A stretch of DNA of 40,802 bases from Gammaproteobacteria bacterium (GTDB lineage Bacteria; Pseudomonadota; Gammaproteobacteria; Steroidobacterales; GCA-2729495): contig JAPUGB010000065.1 in NCBI GenBank assembly GCA_027293165.1, positions 1 to 40,802 on the forward strand. The letters are read 5' to 3'. Within the stretch, counting starts at the first letter, position 1; each line of letters starts with the position of its first letter. The translations under genes were made by a program, and so were the position numbers. The notes below the pieces were generated by a model, which was given only the letters and a program-made list of their open reading frames with translations, was not told the origin of the DNA and did no database searches. Positions 1,473 to 16,222 of the stretch are shown here, one piece after another.

Positions 1473-2876
1473 CTAGTAAGTATTGGAAACTCCGCCGCCC
1501 GCCTGTCTCATTGAATCGAGCTGCTGCTGCAGTTGCTTCAGCCGCTTCTGCTCATTCTGGATAAAATTCAGCCACGAGTTGGCATTCTTCTTGCTGCGCG
1601 AGTCTCTGGCAGCCCGGCGAAAAGCATTCATAGCACCACCGAGATTATCGGTCTCGAACAGGCACATGCCCAGCACCATGTTGGCCGTATCGGCGCGCTT
1701 CAGGTCACCCTTGCGGATTCCCGCCCTGGCCGCCTCGATGCACTCTTTGTACCTGCTGAGATTTAGAAGGGACTGCGCGAGCCGCACATCGAGTTCACCA
1801 TCATCGGACAGTCTGGCCGCTTCTTTCAGGGCGGGCACTGCTTTGTTGTCTTCCTGTGCAAGTGTCCATGCCTGCGACAGCAGGCGCCAATTCTTGGCGT
1901 CTTTTTTGACCTGTCCTGCCTCCATCCCTTTCTCGAGAACTCTCCCCGCCTTGTAGGGCACTTCGGCCTGCAGGAACAGCTGGGATAGTTGCACCAGCTC
2001 GGTATTTCTCTGCAGCAGTCCCTGGTCGTAGGCCGCTTCATACGCACTGAGTTGCCGACGTTCCTGATCAAGTTCACCGTACATTGCGGATAATTGGGTC
2101 CAGTATTCCTTCTTGGGCCACTGCACGACCAGGATTTCCAGGATGTCTTTTACTTTCGGAATATCGTCGAGCTCCCAATACGCCACGCGCAGCAACAGCC
2201 ACCATTGTTCCTTTACTGAAGTGCCACGCTCCCGGGCAATGCTCATTGCGCGCTCTACCGGTTGAATGATGTCGCGGTATCGTTCCAGTTGATAATAGCC
2301 GGTGGCCATAAAAATGAATGGTTCCGGGCCGGGATTTTCCGACTCCGCCACCCACTGATTCATCATATCGATCGCACCCTGGTAGTCCTCGAGGATAAAT
2401 TTCAACTGCGCTACCGTATAAATCGTCGACGTGCGCAGCCCCTCCGGAATTTCCGGTTCCTGCAGAACTTGTTGATATGCCCGAATGGCGTCGTCGTATC
2501 GTTCCATCGAGTAATAGATGAAACCGTAGAAATTGTTCATCTGCGCCCGTTCATATGGCGACAGCTTGGGCATGGTCTTGATCGCGTCGAGCTCCGATAG
2601 TGCCCTGAGATAATCCGGCTGCACGTCGGGTGTTTCCTCCGGAGGATCCGCAAACTCCTGGGCCTGCGCCAGGCGTTTGTAAACTTTCTCACTCATCGAA
2701 CCGGTGCGCTTGGTCTTGCGTTTTTCATCGGATTTCTTGTCGGCAGACTGCCCCGAACCTCCTCCGGAGCCCCCACCGTATTGAGCCTGCGCTACACCGC
2801 TGCTCCAACCCGGCACCAACAGTGGCAGGCTAGCGACCAGCGTGGCCACAACCAAACGCTGTAGTGCCGTTGACAT
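1473..2876 (-). CDS. Secreted TPR-repeat protein of the TonB2 operon
   Basis: The protein is 467 residues with a signal peptide (basic start, hydrophobic core to about residue 28, cleavage near AQA-QYGGG), so it is exported to the periplasm. A Gly/Ser/Lys-rich linker (33-62) leads to an array of tetratricopeptide helices from about 75 to 440; the NNFYGFIYYSMERYDDAI stretch is a good repeat unit. The tail is Gln-rich and probably coiled coil (KRLKQLQQQLDSM). Its ATG overlaps the tonB stop by one base (TGATG). A TPR protein is the known last gene of the TtpC-TonB2 clusters of Vibrio and Shewanella, where it supports TonB2-dependent transport. A role as a periplasmic scaffold is inferred from that gene order. 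Confidence 0.88.
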   Translation of the reverse strand: MSTALQRLVVATLVASLPLLVPGWSSGVAQAQYGGGSGGGSGQSADKKSDEKRKTKRTGSMSEKVYKRLAQAQEFADPPEETPDVQPDYLRALSELDAIKTMPKLSPYERAQMNNFYGFIYYSMERYDDAIRAYQQVLQEPEIPEGLRTSTIYTVAQLKFILEDYQGAIDMMNQWVAESENPGPEPFIFMATGYYQLERYRDIIQPVERAMSIARERGTSVKEQWWLLLRVAYWELDDIPKVKDILEILVVQWPKKEYWTQLSAMYGELDQERRQLSAYEAAYDQGLLQRNTELVQLSQLFLQAEVPYKAGRVLEKGMEAGQVKKDAKNWRLLSQAWTLAQEDNKAVPALKEAARLSDDGELDVRLAQSLLNLSRYKECIEAARAGIRKGDLKRADTANMVLGMCLFETDNLGGAMNAFRRAARDSRSKKNANSWLNFIQNEQKRLKQLQQQLDSMRQAGGGVSNTY

Positions 2877-3508
2877 CAGTCGTCTTCCATCTCAAAGCGG
2901 ATGATGTGTTGGACGCCGGGAACCTCGATCTCCTGGCCATCGACCACCCGTGGTTTGTATTTGAACTTGCCGGCTGCATTGACCGAGGCACGCTCAAATA
3001 AGGAACTGGTGCATTCGATGGATCTCACATCGCGGACCGTGCCGGTTTTCGTCACGGTAAACTCCAACAGACAGTAACCCTCCAGGCCCCGGGTCTGAGC
3101 GCGGCGCGGGTAGATCGGGGCAACCTTCACGATCGGCATATAATCACCGTCGACGACCGCAAAATTTCCGCGGGTTGGATCAAGATTTATGCCCATGCGA
3201 CCAAACGATATGTCCACTGTATGGGAGGTATCCAGCGGGTCGACCTGAGGTTGGGGCATTTCAGGCGGTGGCCGTTCCGGCTCCGGCGGCTTCTCGGGCT
3301 TGGCCTCATCGAGGTTCACGACTTCATCGCGCTTGATCCGGACAAAATCGACGAATCGAAAATCGCGGCTATTCGTCAGCGCATCTTTACCCGTCGCAAT
3401 CAGGATCTGCATGAGCCACAGCAAGGCAAACGTCACCACCAAGCCGCTCACCCCGGCAATGGCAAAACGGGTCAACATCGAGCTGCCAGCTGTTGCCTGC
3501 ATATTCAA
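2876..3508 (-). CDS. tonB: TonB2-type energy-transducing protein
   Basis: The 210-residue protein has one N-terminal membrane anchor (about 14-37, AIAGVSGLVVTFALLWLM). A Pro/Glu-rich spacer follows (about 70-90, with EKPPEPERPPPEMPQPQ), then a C-terminal TonB domain from about 118. That domain carries the PIYPRRAQTRGLEG signature and the YKPRVVDGQ strand. It transmits the proton-motive force from the ExbB/ExbD/TtpC complex to outer-membrane TonB-dependent receptors. The short proline spacer and 210-residue length fit TonB2-class rather than E. coli-type TonB. The gene lies 30 nt after exbD and overlaps the TPR gene. Confidence 0.93.
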   Translation of the reverse strand: MNMQATAGSSMLTRFAIAGVSGLVVTFALLWLMQILIATGKDALTNSRDFRFVDFVRIKRDEVVNLDEAKPEKPPEPERPPPEMPQPQVDPLDTSHTVDISFGRMGINLDPTRGNFAVVDGDYMPIVKVAPIYPRRAQTRGLEGYCLLEFTVTKTGTVRDVRSIECTSSLFERASVNAAGKFKYKPRVVDGQEIEVPGVQHIIRFEMEDD

Positions 3509-3538
3509 GCCCCAATCAAGCCTTCATTGTACCCGTGA

Positions 3539-3949
3539 TTAGTCATCCTGAGCCGCGATTGAAATATTGAATATCTTGGCCAGCCGGGCCGAATCCATGA
3601 CCAGGATCACGGTCTCCGTGTAGGCTTTCTTGTCCGCCTGGATCACGACCGCGCCTTCCGGGTTTTCAGCGTGCAGCCGTTCGAGCACGGCCCGAACTGC
3701 CCGCGGATCGATCCGGCGACGGTCGATCCAGATCTCATTTGATTCGCTGATTGCCACCAATATGTTGGCATTCTCTAGAACCTCGCGGGTTTGGGCGTCC
3801 GGTCGGTTCACGTCAATGCCGGCTTCCTTGACAAAAGACGCAGTGACAATAAAAAAGATCAGCATGATAAACACGACGTCGAGCATCGGCGTCAGGTTGA
3901 TCTCACTTTCGTCTTCTTCGCTAGCCGCCTGAATAATGGTTCTGCGCAT
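3539..3949 (-). CDS. exbD: ExbD/TolR-family proton-channel subunit
   Basis: The 136-residue protein has a short cytoplasmic N-terminus and one transmembrane helix (about 20-42) opening with INLTPMLDVVFIMLIFF. This contains the conserved Asp that carries protons in ExbD and TolR. A periplasmic domain (about 45-136) ends in the typical V-x-x-Q-A-D-K-K-A-Y strand. It forms the inner-membrane motor with the ExbB and TtpC proteins encoded just upstream, with a 39-nt gap to exbB. It is ExbD2-like by context. Confidence 0.95.
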   Translation of the reverse strand: MRRTIIQAASEEDESEINLTPMLDVVFIMLIFFIVTASFVKEAGIDVNRPDAQTREVLENANILVAISESNEIWIDRRRIDPRAVRAVLERLHAENPEGAVVIQADKKAYTETVILVMDSARLAKIFNISIAAQDD

Positions 3950-3988
3950 AACTTGGCCTCTAAAATCTCAGCATGATCACAGTCAGTT

Positions 3989-4516
3989 TCAGTGGTCCAT
4001 GGTCAATTGCTCTTCGAGACTTTGGACTCGGTTGACCACCGCTCGCGAAATGATTGTGACCAGAAACACCCCGGACAGGGCCCCTACCATCCCCGCCATG
4101 GTCGGAATCGTGGCCTTGGATACCCCGGCCGCCATGGAGCGAGCGTTGCCGGTGCCGGATATCGCCATGACGTCGAACACCTCGATCATTCCGGTGACGG
4201 TCCCCATCAAACCCAGCAGCGGACATAGCGCGACCAGGGTCTGGATCACCGGCACCGATCGATTGGCGGATATCGAAAACCGGGAAATCATCGCGTCGCG
4301 GATCCGTTGGGCACGCCAGGAGCGTCGTTCGGCCCGGGCCTCCCAGGTGTCCCGTATATCTCTAGCAAGGCCGACCAGCCCGGTGCGGTAGTAGATAAAC
4401 CGCTCCACGATGAGCATCCACATCGTGAAAATGACGATAGCAATTACAGTCAGGACATCGCCTCCGAGCTCCATGAAGTCCCGGACCGCCTCAAATGCGT
4501 CGATCAACCACTGCAT
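3989..4516 (-). CDS. exbB: ExbB2-type MotA/TolQ/ExbB proton-channel protein
   Basis: Starting at the ATG at 4516 (MQWLIDAFEAV) gives 175 residues. Longer upstream readings run into ttpC in another frame and are not credible. Three membrane segments are visible: about 20-42, 90-115 (PLLGLMGTVTGMIEVF, the family signature) and 132-155 (MAGMVGALSGVFLVTII). This short form lacks any periplasmic extension, unlike the neighbouring TtpC. Together they match the two-ExbB-like arrangement of the TonB2 system. The gene starts 40 nt after ttpC. Confidence 0.92.
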   Translation of the reverse strand: MQWLIDAFEAVRDFMELGGDVLTVIAIVIFTMWMLIVERFIYYRTGLVGLARDIRDTWEARAERRSWRAQRIRDAMISRFSISANRSVPVIQTLVALCPLLGLMGTVTGMIEVFDVMAISGTGNARSMAAGVSKATIPTMAGMVGALSGVFLVTIISRAVVNRVQSLEEQLTMDH

Positions 4517-4556
4517 ACTAGGCTTGTCCCCAGCTTTTACGGCACGGCCCGCAAGG

Positions 4557-5936
4557 CTAGCGTTCGCCCTGGCGCTCTGCGTGCTCGGCCAGAATGCCCG
4601 CGCTCTGCTCCTGCAGCACCTGCACGATCCGCCTGCTGCGGCCGCTGACCAGCGTGTGTAACAGGACCATCGGAATAGCGACGGTGAGCCCCAGCACAGT
4701 CGTGACCAGCGCCTGGGAAATGCCGCCGGCCATAAGTTTCGGATCGCCGGTTCCATACAACGTGATCGCCTGGAAAGTCTGAATCATTCCCGTGACGGTC
4801 CCGAGCAGGCCCATCAATGGCGCGACCACCGAGATGATCTTGATAAACAGCAGGGCTCGATTCAAAGCCGGGGTCTCTTTGAAAATCGCCTCGGACATTT
4901 TCAGTTCGAGCGTCTCGGTATCCGCGCTTTTGTTCGCGTCACAGACGCGCAACACGCGGCCCAGCGCATTGTCATTGCTCGGCGTGCTGCTGTTGAGCTG
5001 TGCCGTTACCTTGCGGCTCGCTATACCCAGCACGACCATGCGCTCCAGGGATATAAGCAAGCCGATAATGCCCAGCGCAATGATCAGGTAACCGACCAGC
5101 CCGCCTTGCTGAATTCGCTCGACCAGGTTGGGCCGCGCGACCAGCGATTTGAGCACGCCACCCAGCGTCGGATCCAGGCCAAACCGCACCAACGCGTCAT
5201 CCGAGTTCAACAGGTCCGAGGTGCTGCGGGTGAACCGCCGCTGCTCCGGCTGCCTGGGCAATTCCGATACCTTTTGGGTATTGGCGTCAAAATCGAGGTA
5301 TTTCCCATCGGAGACGATGTTGAACAATCCCACCCGGGCGACCTCCATGATCTCCTCGGTGCCGTCTTCCGTGATCACCGCTGTGTCGAAGCGGACGATT
5401 TTCCCGCTTTCGGTCATCTCGCGTTGCAGCTCAAACCACAGGCGCTCAATTTCCTCGATGGACGGCAGTTGGGAAGCGCTGCCTATCTTCTTGGCCAGAT
5501 CGCCGAGAAATTGACCCCGGTCCGGATACTGAATGTTGGTCAGGGAACTGTCGAAACGGCCCCGCGCATCGCCGGCGACCTGTTGCATGACCCCGAACAA
5601 TTCTTTCAGGGCGCCGAGGCGCTCATTGTATAAGGCCTTCAGATCCGCCAACGCGCCCTCATTCGCATCGAATTCATTCTCCAGTTGCTCACTGCGCCGC
5701 TCCTCGGCTCTCTTGGCCGCCTCTGCATCGCGCAACAGCCGCTGCTGATCGGCCCTGGACGCCCGGAATCGCTCCTCGCGTTGACGGTTTTCCTGATTGT
5801 CGTTAATCCGCCCCTGTTCCACCTGGCGCAGCAATTCGTCGATACTGACAGCTTTTTGTGCGACGGCGCTGGACGGCCCCAGAACGGCAACCGCCAGCAC
5901 CGAGGCGCCTAGCCAGTTTAAATATATGCGCTTCAT
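4557..5936 (-). CDS. ttpC: TtpC-like MotA/TolQ/ExbB protein with periplasmic coiled-coil domain
   Basis: The 459-residue protein has a signal peptide (1-26, ending SSAVA-Q). A long charged coiled coil follows (about 30-125, rich in QRE/RAEERRSEQLE), then a periplasmic domain and, from about 285, an ExbB-like membrane part. The membrane helices are LVGYLIIALGIIGLLISL, the MGLLGTVTGMIQTF signature, and LVTTVLGLTVAIPMVLL. In Vibrio, TtpC is an extra ExbB-like subunit needed by TonB2 but not TonB1. The start ATG overlaps the stop of the DUF3450 gene (TGATG), so translation is coupled. The symbol rests on domain architecture and gene order. Confidence 0.88.
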   Translation of the reverse strand: MKRIYLNWLGASVLAVAVLGPSSAVAQKAVSIDELLRQVEQGRINDNQENRQREERFRASRADQQRLLRDAEAAKRAEERRSEQLENEFDANEGALADLKALYNERLGALKELFGVMQQVAGDARGRFDSSLTNIQYPDRGQFLGDLAKKIGSASQLPSIEEIERLWFELQREMTESGKIVRFDTAVITEDGTEEIMEVARVGLFNIVSDGKYLDFDANTQKVSELPRQPEQRRFTRSTSDLLNSDDALVRFGLDPTLGGVLKSLVARPNLVERIQQGGLVGYLIIALGIIGLLISLERMVVLGIASRKVTAQLNSSTPSNDNALGRVLRVCDANKSADTETLELKMSEAIFKETPALNRALLFIKIISVVAPLMGLLGTVTGMIQTFQAITLYGTGDPKLMAGGISQALVTTVLGLTVAIPMVLLHTLVSGRSRRIVQVLQEQSAGILAEHAERQGER

Positions 5937-6712
5937 CAGGTTGCCTCCGGTGTATCGACAGGCAGCAACACCAGGTCCGGAGCGATTTGTTTGTTCGCAA
6001 TTCGCAGTCCCTGCCGAATCGAATTCTTGTACTCGTTACCGAGCTCGACCCACTTGCGTTCGTCCTGGTCCCAGGCGCCCGACAGCTTGCCGTCGGCGGT
6101 CTGATACAGGAGCGCAATCCGACCGATGCGCAGAAACTCCACGTTCCGCGTCGCGCCATCAATATTCAGGGTACCGGTATAGGCTTCGATCGTTCGCCCG
6201 TAGTCGTTTTCGATCTGGTATGTCTCCATGACCTTGCGGAACCTTTCTGCAACCGTAATTTCCTCAGTCTCGAGCAATAATTCCAGCTGAGCCACACGAG
6301 CTTGTCGCTCTTCCAGCAGGAACGGCACGTCGAGCGACACAAATTGCGTCACCGACTCGATCATTCTCAGCATCAGCGGGGCGATCTGGCGGCTGACAAC
6401 CGCAACGCGGTCAATGGACTCATTGAGTTCCGCCATTTTGGCAACCTGGCGATTAATCTGCCGTTGCAGCAGCTCGTTGTAAATGCGCAGCCCGTCAATT
6501 TCCTTGAGTACTGCTTTGTACTGGTCTTCCAGCAGCCGCGTCTGATCGACGACCGCGTCGATCGTTTGCTGCGACTCCTGCGCCAGCGTGGTTCGGTTCT
6601 GTTGAACCCCGATGACGTCGTTTAGTGACTGGGCCTGAGCTGCCAGCTGCCATGCTACCGCCGCGGCGACACATCCAGCCAACAGACAGGAACCCCTCTT
6701 CATCACATTCAT
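5936..6712 (-). CDS. DUF3450 family periplasmic protein, first gene of the TonB2 operon
   Basis: The best start is the ATG at 6712, six bases after a strong GGGGGAG. The ATG at 6703 is too far from it, and anything further upstream lacks coding character. The product is 258 residues: a signal peptide (about 1-28, core LLAGCVAAAVAWQLAAQAQ), a Gln/Glu-rich coiled coil (about 35-115), then an alpha/beta domain with IENDYGRTIEAYTGTL and FLRIGRIALLYQT. DUF3450 proteins are regularly encoded just before ttpC-exbB2-exbD2-tonB2. Their biochemical role is unknown to me. A structural role beside the TtpC coiled coil is my inference. Confidence 0.85.
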   Translation of the reverse strand: MNVMKRGSCLLAGCVAAAVAWQLAAQAQSLNDVIGVQQNRTTLAQESQQTIDAVVDQTRLLEDQYKAVLKEIDGLRIYNELLQRQINRQVAKMAELNESIDRVAVVSRQIAPLMLRMIESVTQFVSLDVPFLLEERQARVAQLELLLETEEITVAERFRKVMETYQIENDYGRTIEAYTGTLNIDGATRNVEFLRIGRIALLYQTADGKLSGAWDQDERKWVELGNEYKNSIRQGLRIANKQIAPDLVLLPVDTPEAT

Positions 6713-7120
6713 GAAGTCTCCCCCTGCTTGATTATCGGAGTGATCAATTCCGGAAAAATCTTGTAGGCCTGCGTGTTCAATTTTTTGTGTGGCCGTTCGG
6801 TACCTTACTACACAAGAGTTAGAGACGCATCCGCGCCCAATTGCAAACTTTTGCTTGTGTGCTCCCCCGCAAACCCGCTGCCGACACCATGAGATCAGCG
6901 CCGCGGCTAAATGAAAATATTTTCGGTACTCTGGGTACTCGTTCCGTAGTCCAATCACCGCCGCGCTGCCGCGGGACCTGCCGCGTGATAGCAGGCAACA
7001 CGCTTCCCCCCTTTCTACGGCGGCCGTCCTACCCCTGTGGCCGGCCGGCAGAATATTATACGCGGCAGGCAACGCCAGCACCGTTGGCTAGGGGCACATT
7101 GAACGGCCGGCTCGCGCCAG

Positions 7121-7143: not shown

Positions 7144-7311
7144 GGCTCCGCCCATTCCGGGCTCGCCAACATGAATTAAGTATAAAGTTAAGTAAACTAA
7201 TAGTTTATATAATCTACCTACTGTATTTTCTCCATTTTGATTACGCCACTCGCCGGCGGATCGCCAGACGCTGAGCCGACCGGTTGTTGCTTAAAATTCA
7301 AACGCTTGAGG

Positions 7312-7340
7312 TTGACAAGCCTGCGCGCTTCCCGGAACAT
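7312..7340 (+). promoter_or_regulatory. Candidate promoter for the ilvC leader
   Basis: An exact TTGACA (-35, 7312-7317) is followed after 17 nt by GAACAT (7335-7340), a poor -10 (3 of 6). It would start RNA at about 7347, at the leader-peptide ATG itself. The competing candidate is the exact TATAAT at 7208-7213, which has no good -35 but would give a normal 5' UTR. Confidence 0.3.
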
Positions 7341-7346
7341 GCTCGG

Positions 7347-7463
7347 ATGCCTACAACCTGCGAAACAGTGCGAAATGGCTCCCCATGGGCCGGGATCACC
7401 GGGATACTGCGTCCGCTGTTGGTGCTGCTTTGCCGCTGCAGGTGCGGGCCGATGACCGGGTAA
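7347..7463 (+). CDS. Leader peptide of the ilvC operon (attenuator)
   Basis: This 38-codon frame from ATG (7347) to TAA (7461-7463) contains ITGILRPLLVLL at residues 17-28. That packs two Ile, five Leu and one Val into 12 codons, and all three are end products of the operon that follows. The tail is Cys/Arg-rich (CRCRCGPMTG). The stop is 18 nt before the intrinsic terminator at 7481-7516. GGTGCGGG (7441-7448), inside the last codons, can pair with CCCGCACC (7486-7493) and would disrupt the terminator. A ribosome stalled at residues 20-28 would leave that segment free, the classic antitermination arrangement. The ATG has no strong Shine-Dalgarno; the GTG at codon 8 is another possible start. 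Confidence 0.72.
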   Translation: MPTTCETVRNGSPWAGITGILRPLLVLLCRCRCGPMTG

Positions 7464-7480
7464 ATTCCCTACAAGTCATG

Positions 7481-7516
7481 AAAACCCCGCACCCAGCCAG
7501 GTAGCGGGGTTTTTTT
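7481..7516 (+). terminator. Intrinsic terminator acting as the ilvC attenuator
   Basis: CCCCGC (7485-7490) and GCGGGG (7504-7509) form the stem, extended by AAAA against the 7-U run (7510-7516). It lies between the leader peptide and ilvC, where no gene ends, so it must be regulatory. Its 5' arm is complementary to GGTGCGGG at 7441-7448, giving a mutually exclusive antiterminator. Confidence 0.85.
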
Positions 7517-7549
7517 ATGCCGTTAAGGCGGCGTGCCGAGGAGCTAACA

Positions 7550-8536
7550 ATGCAAATTTATTCCGAAAGCGATGTCAACGTCGACAAGCTCACTGACAAA
7601 AGGATCGCCGTGCTTGGATACGGCAGCCAGGGTCGGGCACATGCGCTCAATTTAAAGGATAGCGGTCTCGATGTCGTGGCGGGCCTGCGGCCCGACGGCG
7701 CCAGCTGGGCAAAGGCCCAGGCAGACGGACTGGAAGTTCAGCGCCCGGAAGATGCCGTCACTGATGCGGCCCTGGTCGCTTTCCTGGTGCCGGACACGGC
7801 GCAGCCGGCGCTCTACGAGCAAGTGGTGGACGGGATTCCACAAGCAGCGACGTTGCTGTTTGCGCACGGCTTCAATATTCATTATGACCAGATCCAGCCG
7901 CGGGAAGACCTCGATGTGGTCTTGATTGCGCCGAAGGGACCGGGCGATCTGGTCAGACGCCAATACCAACAAGGCAAAGGCGTTCCGTGCCTGGTTGCTG
8001 TTGCGCAGGACCGAAGCGGCGAAGCCATGGCAACGGCCTTGGCCTATGCGCACGGGATCGGGGGCTCCCGGGGCGGGATTCTGGAAACCACTTTTGCCGA
8101 GGAAACCGAGACTGACCTGTTCGGCGAACAAGCGGTCCTGTGCGGCGGGGCAACCGAACTGGTGCTGGCTGGATTCGACACGCTGGTCAAGGCCGGCTAT
8201 CAGCCCGAGGTGGCCTATTTCGAGTGCATGCACGAACTGAAGCTGATCGTTGATTTGCTGCACGAGGGCGGACTAAAGAAAATGCATCAGTTCATCAGCG
8301 AAACGGCCAAGTGGGGAGATTTGAAGAGCGGCCCACGCGTAATCGACGCGCACGTGCGTGAGCGCATGCAGGAAATCCTGGCGGAAATCCAGGACGGCAG
8401 TTTTGCAAAGGAGTGGGTTGCAGAGAACCGGCAGGGCCGCAGTGAGTATCAGCGAATGCTCGCCGCGGATCTGGCCCATCCCATCGAGACGGTAGGTAGG
8501 GAGCTGCGCGCCCGCATGCCCTGGCTGGAAGAGTAA
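7550..8536 (+). CDS. ilvC: Ketol-acid reductoisomerase, class I (NADP+)
   Basis: Starting at the ATG at 7550, six bases after GAGGAG, gives 328 residues, the usual class I length. The enzyme converts 2-acetolactate or 2-aceto-2-hydroxybutyrate to the dihydroxy acid, the second common step to Val, Leu and Ile. A Rossmann GYGSQG motif (23-28) and the LRPDGASW loop (46-53) indicate NADPH use. The active site includes H106 and the Mg ligands D189 and E193 in DLFGEQ. It is the first gene after the leader/attenuator. No acetolactate synthase genes (ilvBN/GM) occur in the window, so the substrate must come from a distant locus. Confidence 0.97.
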
Positions 8537-8611: not shown

Positions 8612-10186
8612 ATGAACAAGCGAGCTGAGGATCGCGTCTTCATATTCGACACGAGCTTACGGGATGGCGAACAGGCACCCGGGTGCAGCATGACGCTGCG
8701 CGAGAAGCTGAGGGTCGCCGCGGCACTCCGTGAACTTAAGGTCGATGTCATCGAGGCTGGGTTTCCGGCCGCTTCTCCCGGCGATTTCGACGCAGTACAG
8801 GCTATTGCCGGTGAGATCGACGGACCGATCATCTGCGGACTGGCGCGTTGCAATCCAACCGACATCGAGCGGGTCTGGAACGCGGTGAGGTCCGCCGATC
8901 GGCACCGGATTCATGTGTTCGTGGCGACCAGTGAGATTCACCGTGAGCACAAGCTGCAGATGGCGAAGGAAGAAATCATCAAGAGCGCTGTAAGCGCGGT
9001 GGAAATGGCGAAGGCGCACTGTGACGATGTCGAATTCTCGCCCGAAGACGCGTCTCGCACCGAGCTGGCCTATCTGGCGGACGTCGTCACGGCCGTCATC
9101 GAGGCTGGTGCAACCACCGTCAATATACCGGACACGGTGGGATATACAGTACCCGATGAATTTGCCGAGCTATTCAGGTACCTGAAACAGCATGTGCCAG
9201 GTATCGACGACATCGTGCTTAGCGTGCACTGTCACGATGACCTGGGTATGGCGGTCGCCAATAGCCTGGCGGCGGTCGGCGCGGGAGCGCGCCAGATTGA
9301 GTGCACCATTAACGGGATTGGCGAGCGGGCCGGCAACTGTTCACTCGAAGAAGTGGTCATGGCGCTCAAGACCCGCGCGGAATTTTTTGGCGTCGGTACC
9401 GGTATCGACACGCGCAAGTTATACCCAACCAGCCGCCTGGTTGCGAGCATCACCGGCATGCACATTCCGCGCAATAAGGCCGTCGTTGGGGAGAACGCAT
9501 TCGCGCATGAAGCCGGCATTCATCAACACGGCATGCTGAAGAATGCTGCAACCTACGAAATCATGCTGCCCGAAGACGTCGGCATCAGTCAGTCGAATTT
9601 GGTACTGGGCAAGCACAGTGGTCGTCATGCATTCCGGGAACGCGTCCGGCAACTCGGGTTCGAACTCGATGATGATGAACTGAACCGGGCCTTCACGGAC
9701 TTCAAGAGCCTGGCCGACCGGAAAAAGGAGCTGTTCGATGCCGATTTAGAAGCCATCATCATGAATACCGGCACCGGTATCCAGGGCCCGTGGCAATTGG
9801 ATGAACTCAATATAACGGCCGGCACCGGAAAAATCGCTGCCGCGGCGGTTCGACTCAGTCATGCCGACGGGCAGACGATCAGTGAGGCATCAGTGGGCGA
9901 CGGCCCGGTCGAGGCAGCATTCAAGGCCATAGAAAGAGCGGCAGGCGTGTCCGCGGACCTGAAAAATTTCGAGGTCCGAAGCGTAACGGTCGGCGAGGAC
10001 GCCCAAGGTGAGGTGACCGTAACCGTAGAATATAATGGCCAAAGCTACAGGGGGCATGGCATCAGCACGGATATCGTGGAGGCCGGCGCCAGGGCGTATC
10101 TTGAAGTCATTAATCGTATCTGCCGACGGCAGGAAACCGGCGCAGACAGAGCAGCCGAAAAACAGCAAAGCATCGCCGGTATCTAG
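8612..10186 (+). CDS. leuA: 2-Isopropylmalate synthase
   Basis: The 524-residue protein is the first committed enzyme of leucine synthesis (acetyl-CoA + 2-oxoisovalerate to 2-isopropylmalate). It has an N-terminal HMGL-type TIM barrel with the FDTSLRDGEQAPGCSM signature near residue 12 and the metal site HCHDD near 206. GNCSLEE and HEAGIHQHG follow near 243 and 303. The C-terminal part (about 395-505) is the regulatory domain that normally binds leucine. The start follows GGAGG by 6 nt, and the gene is 75 nt after ilvC. The last 20 residues or so are polar and probably disordered. Confidence 0.96.
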   Translation: MNKRAEDRVFIFDTSLRDGEQAPGCSMTLREKLRVAAALRELKVDVIEAGFPAASPGDFDAVQAIAGEIDGPIICGLARCNPTDIERVWNAVRSADRHRIHVFVATSEIHREHKLQMAKEEIIKSAVSAVEMAKAHCDDVEFSPEDASRTELAYLADVVTAVIEAGATTVNIPDTVGYTVPDEFAELFRYLKQHVPGIDDIVLSVHCHDDLGMAVANSLAAVGAGARQIECTINGIGERAGNCSLEEVVMALKTRAEFFGVGTGIDTRKLYPTSRLVASITGMHIPRNKAVVGENAFAHEAGIHQHGMLKNAATYEIMLPEDVGISQSNLVLGKHSGRHAFRERVRQLGFELDDDELNRAFTDFKSLADRKKELFDADLEAIIMNTGTGIQGPWQLDELNITAGTGKIAAAAVRLSHADGQTISEASVGDGPVEAAFKAIERAAGVSADLKNFEVRSVTVGEDAQGEVTVTVEYNGQSYRGHGISTDIVEAGARAYLEVINRICRRQETGADRAAEKQQSIAGI

Positions 10187-10211: not shown

Positions 10212-11174
10212 ATGCCGATCAACGAATGCGACTGGATCTGGCAGAACGGCAAACTGGTGCCGTGGTCAGAGGCCCAAGTGCACGTGCTGACACACGGCCT
10301 GCACTACGGCTCGACCGTATTCGAAGGAATTCGTGTATACGCAACCCCGTCAGGGTCGATGGCATTTCGGCTGCAGGCACACACGCGGCGCATGCTCGAT
10401 TCTGCGCGGATTCACCGCATCAACATCCCGTATAGCGAGGACCAGATCAACGCCGCCTGCCGGGAAGTTGTGCTGCGCAACCAGTTGACCAACGGGGCCT
10501 ACATTCGCCCCATCGCCTATCGCGGTTACGGCGAGATCGGGCTGGCACCTGCGGCCGATCATCCGGTTGAAATGGCGATCGCTGCCTGGGAGTGGGGAGC
10601 TTACCTGGGCTCCGAGGCTCTGGAAAACGGCGTCGACGTCTGCGTGTCATCGTGGCAAAGGGTGGCTCCGAATACGATCCCGGCGCTGGCAAAAGCCGGC
10701 GGCAATTATCTGTCGAGCACCCTGGTCAGTCTGGAAGCCAGGGAAAACGGGTTCGCAGAGGGTATTGCGCTGGCCAGCGACGGCACCGTCAGCGAGGGCG
10801 CCGGCGAAAACCTGTTTTTGGTCAAGGACGGCAAAGTGTATACGCCGCCTGCGGCGGCCTCGATCCTGCCGGGTATTACCCGCAATAGCGTGATGGTGCT
10901 AGCCGAGAAAGCCGGCATAAACATCCAGGAACAATTGATCCCGCGGGAGATGCTGTACATCGCTGACGAAATATTTTTAACCGGCACCGCGGCGGAGATT
11001 ACCCCGGTACGCTCGGTTGACCGGATCGCCGTTGGCAATGGAAAGCGAGGTGATCTGACACGTCAGTTGCAGGACAGTTTCTTCGGGTTATTTAAAGGTA
11101 CGACGAAAGATGAATGGGGCTGGCTGGAGCCGCTGGAGTCTGAATCAAAAATAAAACAGAAAGCCGCCGGGTGA
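10212..11174 (+). CDS. ilvE: Branched-chain amino acid aminotransferase
   Basis: The start ATG at 10212 is 5 nt after AAGGAG; earlier in-frame codons overlap leuA. The 320-residue fold-type IV PLP enzyme transfers the amino group for the last step of Val, Leu and Ile synthesis. Features are the HGLHYGSTVFEGIR segment near 29, the PLP lysine in ALAKAGGNYLSS (about 160), and TVSEGAGENLF and FLTGTAAEITPV, which hold the phosphate. It sits between leuA and leuC, which fits an operon covering the whole branched-chain pathway. The charged last 15 residues or so look like a lineage-specific tail. Confidence 0.95.
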   Translation: MPINECDWIWQNGKLVPWSEAQVHVLTHGLHYGSTVFEGIRVYATPSGSMAFRLQAHTRRMLDSARIHRINIPYSEDQINAACREVVLRNQLTNGAYIRPIAYRGYGEIGLAPAADHPVEMAIAAWEWGAYLGSEALENGVDVCVSSWQRVAPNTIPALAKAGGNYLSSTLVSLEARENGFAEGIALASDGTVSEGAGENLFLVKDGKVYTPPAAASILPGITRNSVMVLAEKAGINIQEQLIPREMLYIADEIFLTGTAAEITPVRSVDRIAVGNGKRGDLTRQLQDSFFGLFKGTTKDEWGWLEPLESESKIKQKAAG

Positions 11175-11250: not shown

Positions 11251-12660
11251 ATGAGCGGAAAATCGCTGTTCGAAAAAGTGTGGGACGAGCATATCGTCGT
11301 GCCCGAGACGGACGATGCGCCGGCCGTGCTCTATATCGACCTGCACCTGATTCATGAGGTCACGACGCCGCAGGCGTTCGCGCTGTTGAAAGATCAACAG
11401 CTGTCGGTGCGTCGTCCCGATTTGACGCTGGCCACGATGGATCACTCGACCCCCACCGTGCCGGTAACCACCCTGAAGGACCTGGAAGTGGTTGCCGAGG
11501 CGCCAGCGGCGGCGCAGATTCGCGCGATGATCGACAACTGCGAACACTTCGGGATCGAACTGTATGGTTTCGGCAGCGAATACCGCGGCATCGTGCACGT
11601 GATCGGCCCTGAACTCGGGGCTACACAGCCCGGCAAAACCATCGTCTGCGGTGACAGCCATACCAGCACGCATGGCGCGTTCGGGGCGCTGGCTTTCGGC
11701 ATCGGTTCGACCGAGGCGGCACACGTGCTGGTCACGCAATGCCTACTGCAACGCAAGCCCAAAATAATGGCGGTGACGATCGACGGCGCTTTGCAAACCG
11801 GGGTTTCCGCCAAGGACGTGATCCTGGCGCTGATCGGACAGATCGGTGTCGAAGGCGGCGTCGGTCATGTCATCGAGTACCTCGGAAACCCGTTGGCGGG
11901 GCTGAACATGGAACAGCGCATGACCATCTGCAACATGACCATCGAAGGCGGCGCCCGGGCCGGCATGATGGCGCCCGACGCAATCACGCTTGAATACCTT
12001 GCCGGCAGGCCGCAGGCACCTGCTGGCGCCGACTGGGATGCGGCGGTCGAACGCTGGCGTAAACTGCCGTCGGATCCCGATGCCCGCTTCGACCGGGAAG
12101 TCAGCCTCGACGCGTCGCGGCTCGAGCCGATGATCACCTTCGGCACCAACCCCGGTATGGTCATCCCGGTCACGCAACCGGTTCCCACCGATACCGGCGA
12201 CCCGAGTTTCCGTAAGGCGCTCGATTACATGCAGGTCGAAGCCGGCAAGCCGATACTTGGCAAAGCCATAGACATAGTCTTTATTGGCAGTTGCACCAAT
12301 TCACGCATGACCGACCTGCGGCAGGCCGCTGAAATGATCAAGGGGCATAAAGTCGCCGACTCGGTGCGGATGCTGGTCGTGCCCGGATCCCAGTCGATCA
12401 AGGCAGAGGCGGAGGCGGAAGGGCTGGACGAAATTTTCATCAGCGCCGGCGCTGAGTGGCGGGAATCGGGATGCTCGATGTGCCTGGGCATGAACGGTGA
12501 CGTGGTCGGACGCGGCCAGTTGGCGGTTAGCACCAGCAACCGGAATTTCGAAGGGCGCCAGGGCGTGGGCGCGCGAACGGTGTTGGCCAGCCCGGCAACT
12601 GCCGTCGCATCGGCAATCAGTGGAACGATCGCCGACCCTCGCGAACTGAACCGGCACTAA
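11251..12660 (+). CDS. leuC: 3-Isopropylmalate dehydratase, large subunit
   Basis: This 469-residue aconitase-family subunit, with LeuD, isomerises 2- to 3-isopropylmalate. The [4Fe-4S] ligands are recognisable in [13 protein letters not shown] (about 345) and [11 protein letters not shown] (about 405-415). [19 protein letters not shown] lies near residue 130. Length and order are standard for bacterial LeuC. It begins 76 nt after ilvE and is followed by leuD after 44 nt. Confidence 0.97.
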
Positions 12661-12704: not shown

Positions 12705-13289
12705 ATGGAAAAAATAATCCGCATAGAGTCGAAGACCCTGGTGCTGCCGCTGGATGACGTGGACACGGACCAGATAATCCCGGCCCGGTTTCTGACCACG
12801 ACGACCAGGGACGGGATCGGCAACGCTTTATTCGCCGACTGGCGCTATGACGCCAACGGCGAGCCGAATGCCGATTTTGTATTAAATGGCCCCGACGTAG
12901 CCGGTTGCGAGGTGTTAGTGGCCGGCCGGAATTTCGGTTGCGGTTCCTCTCGGGAACATGCGCCGTGGGCCCTGGTGGATTTCGGTATTCGCGCAGTCGT
13001 CAGCACGGCGATCGCTGATATCTTCCGCAACAACTCGCTCAAAAATGGTCTCGTGCCGGTCATCGTCGATGCGGATACACACCAGTATCTTCTCGACAAC
13101 CCCGGCATAACGGTCATCGTCGACGTGAAGCAACGGACACTGTCGCTGCCCGATGGCCGGACCGCTACATTCCCGATCGATGGTTTCTCCCGGCACTGCA
13201 TCATGAACGGCATCGACCAACTGGGGTTTCTGCGGCAGCAGGAAGCGGCGATAGCGGATTTTGAGACCAACCGCCCTTGGACGCCCTGA
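12705..13289 (+). CDS. leuD: 3-Isopropylmalate dehydratase, small subunit
   Basis: The 194-residue swivel-domain partner of LeuC has [17 protein letters not shown] near the N-terminus and the signature [17 protein letters not shown] near 70-86. The ATG at 12705 is chosen; a TTG one codon earlier is in frame. Neither has a strong Shine-Dalgarno, so coupling to leuC may matter. Its last 13 bases overlap leuB. Confidence 0.96.
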
Positions 13290-14347
13290 TCGCAATCCTG
13301 CCGGGAGACGGCATCGGACCCGAGGTGACCCACGAAGGGGTGCGCGTACTGAACGCCATTGCCGAACAGTATGGGCATCGCTTTGAACGGCGGGAAGCGC
13401 TGATCGGCGGCGCAGCCCTGGACGCCTTAGATATTCCCGCACCGGAAGCGACGCTCGACCTGGCCCGGGAAGCGGACGCCGTTCTGCTCGGCGCCGTCGG
13501 CGGTCCCAAATGGAACGACGTGCCCGGCGACAAGCGGCCCGAGCGTGGGCTGCTGAACCTGCGCGCGGCGATGAATACGTTCGCGAACGTTCGGCCGGTA
13601 GTCCCCCACGAAGCACTACGCGGTGCATCACCAATAAAGGAAGAACTGCTGGTCGGCGTCGACATGATCGTCGTCCGGGAGCTGACCGGAGGTATCTATT
13701 TCGGAGAGAAACAGCGCAGTGCAGACAGCGCGACCGACGTCTGCACATACACTCGCGAGGAAATCGTACGGGTACTGCGAATTGCGGGCCAGCTCGCCCA
13801 GCAGCGCAAAGGCCGGGTCACGTCAGTGGACAAGTCCAACGTGCTGGAAACTTCGCGGCTCTGGCAAAGCGTCGCCAGGGAGTTTTTTGCGGAGGAGTTT
13901 CCGGAACTTGAAATCGAGCATCTGCTCGTCGACGCGGCAGCGATGCACCTGCTCTCAAGGCCGCGCGATTTCGACGTCATAGTCACCGAAAACATGTTCG
14001 GCGACATTCTGACGGATGAGGCATCGATGCTGGCCGGTTCGATGGGCATGCTGCCGTCGGCATCGTTGAACGCCGGCAAAAAGGGCCTGTATGAGCCGAT
14101 TCACGGTTCTGCTCCGGATATTGCCGGTCAAGGGATCGCAAATCCCTGCGGGTGCATCCTCAGCGTCGCAATGCTGCTCCGGCACTCACTGAGCCTCGAA
14201 GCGGAGGCTGCGGCAGTTGAAGCGGCCGTGTTCGGGGCATTGGACCAGGGATACCGCACGGCCGACATCGCCATCGCGGGCGCACCGTCCGTCACAACCC
14301 GGGAAATGGGCGACGCAATCGCGGCGGGCTTACCGGCAGGCGACTAG
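13277..14347 (+). CDS. leuB: 3-Isopropylmalate dehydrogenase
   Basis: The 356-residue NAD-dependent oxidative decarboxylase makes 2-ketoisocaproate from 3-isopropylmalate. Landmarks are [11 protein letters not shown] at 7-17, [10 protein letters not shown] (about 135), [15 protein letters not shown] (about 185), the metal-binding [12 protein letters not shown] (about 240), and the adenine-binding [13 protein letters not shown] (about 275). The only possible start is TTG at 13277, because an in-frame stop lies just upstream and the first conserved strand begins at residue 4. The start lies inside leuD with a 13-nt overlap, suggesting translational coupling. The stop TAG overlaps the metB stop on the other strand. 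Confidence 0.96.
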
Positions 14348-15543
14348 GCCAGCGCAGAAAAACCGTCTGGCGCAACCGCGACCGCATCAAGCGCGCAGTC
14401 CAGCGCGTGCTCGACATCTGCCACCAGGTCAGCAGTGGCTTCGATCCCGGCGGACAAACGAATCAGTCCCGGGCAAAGGCCGGCAGTCCGCTTGCTGTCT
14501 TCGTCGACAACACCATGGGTCATGCTCCACGGATGAGATGCCAGGCTCTCAACTCCACCCAGTGATTCGGCCAGCGAGAAATATTTCAGCGCCTCGAGGA
14601 ACGCTCGTGCCGCTGGCTCTCTGCCCGCGAGTTCCAGACTGAGCATGCCACCAAAACCTCGCTGCTGGCGCTTCGCTACGGTATGCCCGGGGTGATCATG
14701 CAGACCGGGATAATAAACGCGCCTGACAGCCGCGTGGCCCACGGCAAGATCTGCCAGCGCGGCTGCGTTTTCTTCGTGCAGACGCATCCGCGCGTGTAGC
14801 GTGCGTAATCCTCGCAGCGTTAAGAAGCTATCGAACGGCGCGCCGGTCAGACCAATCGCGTTGGCCCAATACTGCATCTGCTCATGCAACTCCGCCGTGG
14901 TCGCCACCACGGCGCCACCGACGACGTCACTGTGGCCGTTAAGATACTTGGTGGTCGAATGCACGACCAGGTCGGCGCCGAACTCGATCGGCCGCTGCAA
15001 CACCGGTGACAGGAAAGTATTGTCCACCGCCAACAGCGCATCGCTGTCCAACAGCCGCCGACTGAGCTTCCGTAAATCGACGATTCGCAGCAGCGGATTG
15101 GTCGGCGTTTCAACCCAAACCAGTCGCGGGTTCTGCGCCAGCACGCGGTCCAGTTCCGCCGCATCGGTTTGGTCTATCAATTCAAGCCGGAACAACCCGC
15201 GCCGAGCGAATCCAGTCAACAAGCGAAACGTGCCGCCGTAACAATCGTTCGGCGCAATCACCAGGTCGCCGGGATCGACCAACTGGCATACCAGCGTGAT
15301 TGCGGCCATGCCGGTAGAGGTCACGGTGGCCCCCACCCCACCTTCGAGTTCGGCCAAGGCTTCGGCCAGCGCATCGCGCGTGGGATTGGCCGTGCGCGTG
15401 TAATCGTATTTGCGGGGCTTCCCGTAGCCCTCATAGGTGAACGTCGATGACAAATGCAACGGCGGCACGACGGCCCCGTACTGTTCATCGGATTCCAAAC
15501 CGGCTCGCACGGTTAGCGTTTGCGCAGATGGCTCGTTCGACAT
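14344..15543 (-). CDS. metB: Cystathionine gamma-synthase
   Basis: The 399-residue fold-type I PLP enzyme joins activated homoserine and cysteine to form cystathionine in methionine synthesis. It shows close motif-level similarity to E. coli MetB: DEQYGAVVPPLHLSSTF near 19, NPTRDALAEALAELEGG near 53, APNDCYGGTFRL, the PLP lysine in STTKYLNGHSDVVGG (about 197), and ESLGGVESLASHP near 328. A GGAG lies 9 nt before the ATG. Expression should be controlled by the SAM-I riboswitch directly upstream. A cystathionine gamma-lyase role is less likely because the SYR/YSR-type residues and the riboswitch point to biosynthesis. Confidence 0.93.
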   Translation of the reverse strand: MSNEPSAQTLTVRAGLESDEQYGAVVPPLHLSSTFTYEGYGKPRKYDYTRTANPTRDALAEALAELEGGVGATVTSTGMAAITLVCQLVDPGDLVIAPNDCYGGTFRLLTGFARRGLFRLELIDQTDAAELDRVLAQNPRLVWVETPTNPLLRIVDLRKLSRRLLDSDALLAVDNTFLSPVLQRPIEFGADLVVHSTTKYLNGHSDVVGGAVVATTAELHEQMQYWANAIGLTGAPFDSFLTLRGLRTLHARMRLHEENAAALADLAVGHAAVRRVYYPGLHDHPGHTVAKRQQRGFGGMLSLELAGREPAARAFLEALKYFSLAESLGGVESLASHPWSMTHGVVDEDSKRTAGLCPGLIRLSAGIEATADLVADVEHALDCALDAVAVAPDGFSALA

Positions 15544-15621: not shown

Positions 15622-15655
15622 CCTTGCGTCCTTTAGCCAGCGGCCGTTCGCAAGG
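15622..15655 (-). promoter_or_regulatory. Expression-platform hairpin of the SAM riboswitch
   Basis: CCTTGCG (complement of 15649-15655) and CGCAAGG (complement of 15622-15628) form a 7-bp stem directly 3' of aptamer helix P1. It lacks a U-run. Further hairpins follow (GTTCTC/GAGAAC and TACGG/CCGTA), so the switch mechanism is not obvious. Rho-dependent or translational control is possible. Confidence 0.5.
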
Positions 15656-15776
15656 TCTCATCTTCCGGATCCCAATCTGATCTGGAATCCGTAGGACTTG
15701 GCACCTTTTCAGGAGGGTTAGTCCCGAAGGTTGCCCCGGCTTCCAAGGGCCTATCCCTCAGCCGGTCTCGATGAGA
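15656..15776 (-). promoter_or_regulatory. SAM-I (S-box) riboswitch aptamer controlling metB
   Basis: Read on the minus strand, the RNA has helix P1 formed by TCTCATC (15776-15770) and GATGAGA (15662-15656), an exact 7-bp pair. It also shows the conserved S-box blocks in order: CTGAGGGATAGGCCC, GCCGGGGCAACC and AAGGTGCCAAGTCC. These match the SAM-I family consensus closely. SAM binding is expected to turn metB off when methionine derivatives are plentiful. It begins a few bases after the predicted transcription start. Confidence 0.93.
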
Positions 15777-15784
15777 ACTCGTGC

Positions 15785-15814: not shown

Positions 15815-15876
15815 GAAATTACGCCGAATCGCATGCAAAGTGCCCTGCCCGCTTGCATGCGGCCCGCCGGTGAGGT

Positions 15877-15900
15877 AATGTACTAACGTATTAGTACATT
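15877..15900 (+). promoter_or_regulatory. TrpR-family operator (predicted HisR site) of the his operon
   Basis: AATGTACTAA (15877-15886) and TTAGTACATT (15891-15900) are perfect inverted arms around CGTA. The GTACTA...TAGTAC core has the same half-sites as the E. coli TrpR operator. It lies 16 bp before the gene for a TrpR-family protein, so autoregulation of the whole his operon is likely. A TTGCAT at 15853-15858 could be the -35, which would put the -10 and RNA start within the palindrome. Confidence 0.85.
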
Positions 15901-15916
15901 AATATAACAAAATACC

Positions 15917-16222
15917 ATGAAGGACCATCGTGTGTTGAGCCCTGGCGAGGAAGTTGCCGCCGAAGAAGAACTCTTCAATGGGGTGCTGCAACTCAAGAAC
16001 ATCAGCGAGTGCCGGGCATTTTTCGAGGACCTGTGCACCCCGGCTGAACTGCAGGCGATGAAAGATCGCTGGAGCGTCGCCGAACGGCTGGCCGAAGGAC
16101 GGACCTATCGTGAGATTCATGAGCTGACCGGGGTCAGCGTGACGACGATTGGCAGGGTATCTAGATATTTATCTTCTGGTTCAGGTGGTTATCAAACTAT
16201 TTTAAAGAGACTTGGGAAATAA
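15917..16222 (+). CDS. hisR: TrpR/YerC-YecD family repressor, predicted histidine regulator HisR
   Basis: The 101-residue all-helical protein has the TrpR-like helix-turn-helix at about 62-84 (RTYREIHELTGVSVTTIGRVSRYL), preceded by the LCTPAELQAMKDRW helix. This subfamily heads his operons in many bacteria and is predicted to repress them with histidine as a cue. Here it is the first gene after a TrpR-like palindrome. Its stop overlaps the hisG start (TAATG). The ATG lacks a clear Shine-Dalgarno; a GTG at 15929 is an alternative. The effector is not proved by sequence. Confidence 0.87.
   Translation: MKDHRVLSPGEEVAAEEELFNGVLQLKNISECRAFFEDLCTPAELQAMKDRWSVAERLAEGRTYREIHELTGVSVTTIGRVSRYLSSGSGGYQTILKRLGK

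Follow-up and report, generated by a model that had tools for sequence, protein, structure and literature searches.

A predicted ribosome-mediated attenuator with a probably leaderless leader peptide precedes the ilvC-leuA-ilvE-leuCDB cluster of a gammaproteobacterium

The window analysed here is the whole 40,802-nucleotide stretch of contig JAPUGB010000065.1 (assembly GCA_027293165.1, Gammaproteobacteria bacterium). It carries six branched-chain amino acid genes on the plus strand, separated by small gaps and named by NCBIfam: ilvC, ketol-acid reductoisomerase (7550..8536; TIGR00465, 430 bits); leuA, 2-isopropylmalate synthase (8612..10186; TIGR00973, 721 bits); ilvE, branched-chain aminotransferase (10212..11174; TIGR01122, 421 bits); leuC (11251..12660; TIGR00170, 637 bits); leuD (12705..13289; TIGR00171, 195 bits); and leuB (13277..14347; TIGR00169, 457 bits). 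Genes for ilvG and ilvA are missing from this operon. The start of ilvC is placed at ATG 7550, preceded by the plus-strand Shine-Dalgarno sequence GAGGAG (7538-7543); the in-frame ATG at 7517, directly 3' of the terminator described below, is an unlikely start. A divergent cluster of ExbB/ExbD/TonB-like genes, named by eye, occupies 1473-7081 on the minus strand and points away from ilvC. Beyond leuB, a SAM-I (S-box, RF00162) riboswitch (15655-15777, minus strand, 83 bits) immediately precedes a gene on the same strand that resembles cystathionine gamma-synthase (14344-15543). The perfect palindrome TAATGTACTA-N6-TAGTACATTA (15876-15901) sits shortly before a TrpR-related YerC/YecD gene (15917-16222, plus strand; TIGR02531, 86 bits). 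This gene overlaps hisG and likely encodes a HisR-like repressor that controls both itself and the his operon.

The initial annotation had proposed a 38-codon frame before ilvC, and the sequence itself bears this out: the putative leader peptide gene spans 7347..7463 on the plus strand, ends in TAA and translates as MPTTCETVRNGSPWAGITGILRPLLVLLCRCRCGPMTG. Its codons 24-28, CTG TTG GTG CTG CTT (7416..7430, plus strand), specify Leu24, Leu25, Val26, Leu27 and Leu28, and predicted translation of this short frame would therefore draw on codons for the end product of the operon. None of 200 dinucleotide shuffles produced a frame that has 8 of 12 isoleucine, leucine or valine (I/L/V) codons and stops shortly before the terminator. 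An alternative 39-residue frame from ATG 7385 was rejected; it contains no I/L/V run and extends into the terminator. The placement of the element upstream of ilvC also stands, with the refinement that it precedes the whole ilvC-leu cluster.

Between the leader frame and this first structural gene lies an intrinsic terminator (7480..7516, plus strand), an arrangement that recurs in relatives. Its stem joins 7480-7493 to 7500-7514, with a run of seven T at 7510-7516; the hairpin folds at -21.3 kcal/mol (z -4.9), none of 200 shuffles was equally stable, and the fold energy and T-run uphold the original claim of a terminator. A simple terminator scan did not pick up the hairpin at 7480-7516 because of its bulge. 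Within the leader frame, folding, a pairing search and a partner-swap test identified an antiterminator segment, region 2 (GGTGCGGG, 7441..7448, plus strand), whose partner, region 3 (CCCGCACC, 7486..7493, plus strand), is common to the antiterminator and the terminator. Both segments lie exactly where the pairing had been proposed, and the partner-swap test agrees with it. The exact pairing pattern occurs once in the 2.36 Mb genome, with a chance expectation of 0.01 occurrences in the window. When the 3' arm of the terminator is left out, 7436-7500 folds into the alternative 2:3 hairpin (-24.2 kcal/mol, z -3.1). The antiterminator (2:3) and terminator (3:4) are mutually exclusive, and the 2:3 pairing is conserved among relatives. 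Region 1 (7408..7416, plus strand) can pair with 7444-7451 as a 1:2 protector stem, seen in the minimum-free-energy fold of this single sequence only.

The position of a translating ribosome was modelled by hiding the RNA up to 11 nt past the first A-site base. Under this assumption, the antiterminator has a probability of 0.99 when the A site is at codons 14-28, which drops to 0.71 at codon 29, 0.19 at codon 30 and 0.00 at codon 31. The control run therefore marks the last stall positions that free region 2, the same placement as in the classical attenuation scheme; in the model, a ribosome stalled on the control codons frees region 2 and one at the stop codon hides it. With region 4 present, equilibrium favours the terminator over the antiterminator at most stall positions, Leu24-Leu28 included, so the switch would rely on the 2:3 helix folding first. 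Such a kinetic order of folding is the standard assumption for attenuators.

From the computed frame, pairings, geometry and conservation, we infer a course of events in which the transcription start, leaderless initiation, stalling, termination and readthrough are all predicted. RNA polymerase would start at about 7347, placing the mRNA 5' end at the leader AUG or 1-2 nt from it, and the 38-codon leader would be translated without the help of a Shine-Dalgarno sequence. With ample charged Leu-tRNA (and Val-tRNA), the ribosome would clear LLVLL (7416-7430) and head for the stop codon at 7461; near this stop it would cover region 2 (7441-7448), leaving region 3 (7486-7493) to join the terminator (7480-7516), and transcription would end 34 nt before ilvC. 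When leucine (or valine) is scarce, the ribosome would stall on LLVLL. Its leading edge would then not quite reach region 2, which would be free to pair with region 3, block the terminator and allow the operon to be transcribed.

The predicted promoter consists of a consensus -35 element, TTGACA (7312..7317, plus strand), and a -10 element, GAACAT (7335..7340, plus strand), separated by a 17-nt spacer. The -10 element is a weak match to TATAAT (GAATAT in the sister species), and since it shares only 3/6 consensus bases, the start at 7347 is a prediction. The leader ATG stands 6 nt past the -10 element, so that the predicted transcription start (~7347) coincides with the A of the ATG or falls 1-2 nt from it. 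TTGACA keeps the same distance to the leader ATG in about half of related loci. The arrangement is conserved across the order: 26 of 51 non-redundant loci have an ATG 6-9 nt past the -10 element, at 25 of them in frame with the leader, compared with 2.6 expected and at most 9 under the null; under the promoter model used, the leaderless geometry is absent in about half of related loci. The automatic promoter finder misassigned at least one locus (L017, where TTGACA-N17-CAGTAT has an ATG at 7 nt), and 26/51 is therefore probably an underestimate. No Shine-Dalgarno sequence was found at the leader ATGs, with a mean of -0.5 kcal/mol compared with -6.8 kcal/mol at the ilvC ATGs of the same loci (n=23). 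A search of 60 related genomes for TTGACA-N17-NANNAT-N6..9-ATG returned 79 sites by our own count, against 11 for a reversed control pattern, and 28 of the 79 are, by our own reading and count, branched-chain leader frames. The pattern search and the conserved ATG spacing thus strongly support the leaderless geometry as a promoter-ATG arrangement, and the transcript itself is probably leaderless, with RNA synthesis starting at the leader ATG. The same search also returned about 23 yceD-like sites, one of them confirmed by Pfam/NCBIfam. TATCAT-N9-ATG appears as a second recurrent leaderless promoter geometry before yceD-like genes (L132, G000:C221:5216-5256; L133; about 20 others).

Conservation was assessed across related genomes, 90 of 99 of which contain ilvC, and 80 further loci from named genomes. 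Two ilvC groups were distinguished: those with at least about 64% identity to the ilvC of the window are mostly preceded by a frame rich in I/L/V, a complementary segment and a terminator, and a group near 55% identity, from the same family and order, lacks the attenuator. A frame ending at the terminator with at least 7 I/L/V per 12-codon window is present at 41 of 52 related loci, where dinucleotide shuffles predict 0.85, and at 2 of 53 unrelated or IlvY-type ilvC control loci. Pairing was assessed by partner-swap permutation, with regions 2, 3 and 4 at variable spacing and sharing region 3. The duplex of region 2 with its own region 3 averages -18.6 kcal/mol, compared with -17.4 kcal/mol for swapped partners (0 of 5000 permutations) and -14.4 kcal/mol for shuffled upstream sequence; the core CCCCGC/GCGGGG hardly varies and therefore tells little about covariation. 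The proposal had been staked in advance on whether ilvC homologues keep the leader codons and the pairing, and it passed this check on both the 41/52 versus 2/53 contrast and the stronger own-partner duplex. At one locus (L018), upstream of ilvC, hardly any sequence separates a promoter-like TTGACA from the terminator, a layout suggestive of a deleted leader frame.

Comparison with the sister species shows where constraint lies. The leader frame is retained there with no indel, and codons 31 to stop (7437-7463, the region-2 end) have no changes in 27 nt, the terminator 1 in 37 positions, leader codons 21-30 2 in 30 and the promoter 2 in 29, compared with 25 changes in 112 positions just upstream of the -35 element. 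The control codons at 7416-7430 are identical and LRPLLVLL is unchanged, and Ile20 of the window is Thr in the sister species. Across the leader, 7 of 10 changed codons are non-synonymous, so conservation applies to the control run and the pairing segments rather than to the whole peptide.

Leader composition tracks operon content. The isoleucine plus valine share of I/L/V in the control window is 0.54 in operons with ilvG and ilvA, 0.20 in ilvC-leuA operons and 0.27 in leuA-first operons; the first two differ with p 0.0009 (n=5 and 21, the loci being related). In the operons with leaders rich in isoleucine and valine, acetolactate synthase and threonine dehydratase genes sit between ilvC and leuA; the ilvG- and ilvA-type calls in relatives were made by reading the sequence, and Pfam backed one member of each type. 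Because the operon of the window consists of ilvC and leucine genes, leucine is likely to be its main signal, and valine probably the second. The initial annotation had described an attenuator sensing branched-chain aminoacyl-tRNA; attenuation is retained here, and the sensing of all three amino acids is narrowed to probable sensing of leucine together with valine.

Attenuation itself is almost certain on these data, and the whole explanation, a ribosome-mediated transcription attenuator governing the ilvC-leuA-ilvE-leuCDB cluster from a leaderless start, is very likely. On one alternative reading, the same attenuator is served by a more distant upstream promoter, which would give it an ordinary 5' untranslated region and make the ATG-promoter spacing incidental. 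The weak -10 element, a TATAAT at 7208-7213 in an AT-rich stretch, which could in principle give a longer transcript, and the 20-30 nt between the -10 element and the leader ATG in several relatives all speak for this possibility; it nevertheless appears unlikely given the conserved position of the ATG relative to TTGACA (26/51 loci against 2.6 expected), leader ATGs devoid of Shine-Dalgarno sequences and a sister species that keeps the promoter positions but not the sequence upstream of them.

Three further alternatives dispense with the leader ribosome. One holds that the terminator just ends outside transcription, or that ilvC is constitutive, and that the I/L/V frame is a by-product of leucine-rich codon composition. 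GC-rich DNA does yield short hydrophobic frames by chance and intergenic intrinsic terminators are common, but neither circumstance fits the I/L/V enrichment (41/52 against 0.85 expected; controls 2/53) or the preference of the segment ahead of the terminator for its own pairing partner; moreover, the upstream neighbours run the opposite way, so no upstream gene needs a terminator, and we consider this reading very improbable. No more credence is due to another RNA sensor (T-box, riboswitch or protein-binding leader) working the terminator with translation of the frame irrelevant. Upstream terminators serve all these classes, but T-box and riboswitch families all score below the Rfam threshold in the region, no conserved aptamer-like block was found besides the promoter, control codons and pairing segments, and leader composition tracks operon content. 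More broadly, no Rfam family exceeded its threshold at the leader region, Leu_leader (RF00512) scoring 12.7 bits on the leader RNA against a 50-bit gathering cut-off. Control of ilvC by an IlvY-type regulator, as in E. coli, apparently operates within the same family on ilvC genes of the other type, next to which a divergent IlvY-like gene and an operator-like sequence are found. In the window, however, no LysR gene adjoins ilvC, the divergent genes form the ExbB/TonB-like cluster, and the attenuator goes with the other ilvC lineage, making such control extremely improbable here.

The ribosome-mediated attenuator also occurs before other genes. In sister genera of the same family that have the other ilvC type, leuA, with 75-81% identity to leuA of the window, is itself directly preceded by the same promoter and leader frame, a segment resembling GGTGCGG and a closely similar terminator. 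In two genomes of another family, the cassette precedes a PALP-family, threonine-dehydratase-like (ilvA-like) gene. The other-type ilvC loci inspected (L040, L045, L047 and L050) have a divergent LysR gene in place of the attenuator; the one such gene tested scored best with IlvY (NF008722, E 1e-33). An operator-like sequence of the form TTGC...GCAA accompanies other-type ilvC in the same family. On the simplest reading, whose direction is taken without a tree, ilvC was lost from between the attenuator and leuA and its function passed to an IlvY-linked ilvC. It is reasonably likely that the leaderless leader peptide is a conserved, portable branched-chain aminoacyl-tRNA sensor in this order, sensing leucine through 70S-type initiation, with the cassette staying in place as the downstream gene changes (ilvC, leuA or ilvA-like) and its codons being retuned to the products of the operon.

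In its sequence-level features, the element would belong to the known trp/ilv/leu-type ribosome-mediated attenuators. The enterobacterial ilvGMEDA, ilvBN and leuABCD attenuators (ilvL, ivbL and leuL) combine a control-codon leader peptide with an exclusive antiterminator and terminator. The element described here shares with them the control-codon leader, the exclusive 2:3 and 3:4 pairing and a branched-chain operon downstream, and differs in having ilvC first in the operon and a leader RNA that Rfam Leu_leader does not recognise. The E. coli branched-chain leaders have ribosome-binding sites, whereas the transcript here is probably leaderless. A survey of predicted attenuators in Proteobacteria by Vitreschak et al. 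in 2004 reportedly included a Xanthomonas ilvC-ilvG-ilvM-tdcB-leuA operon, and an ilvC-first attenuator is therefore probably not new in itself; among the relatives studied here, this leader type is found before ilvC-ilvG-ilvA-leuA operons, and the operon of the window differs from the Xanthomonas one in having neither ilvG nor ilvA. A leader start codon at the transcript start, as predicted here, has precedents elsewhere. The Corynebacterium glutamicum ilvBNC leader, as cited from Morbach et al. 2000 in PMC11857589, has its start codon one nucleotide from the transcription start and no ribosome-binding site; as far as that citing account goes, it is likewise a branched-chain leader peptide, and it is likened by layout rather than sequence, phylum and first gene being different. 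In Sinorhizobium meliloti, the 5' end of the trpL attenuator RNA is the ATG of the leader peptide, and both the RNA and the peptide, once released, act in trans as well (PMC7298713); the position of the ATG is shared with the prediction made here, but that system concerns tryptophan and an alphaproteobacterium. A literature search of one open-access collection returned no account of leaderless ilv/leu leaders in Gammaproteobacteria, and this form, together with the exchange of the gene behind the cassette, is apparently undescribed.

These analyses identify a putative regulator for branched-chain amino acid synthesis in a gammaproteobacterial group that has received little study, an element of a kind that ORF-based annotation misses. 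The swapping of attenuator-controlled and IlvY-linked ilvC within one family looks like a clear regulatory replacement, and the short RNAs with their conserved leaderless geometry may offer a natural test set for leaderless initiation beyond Actinobacteria and Alphaproteobacteria.
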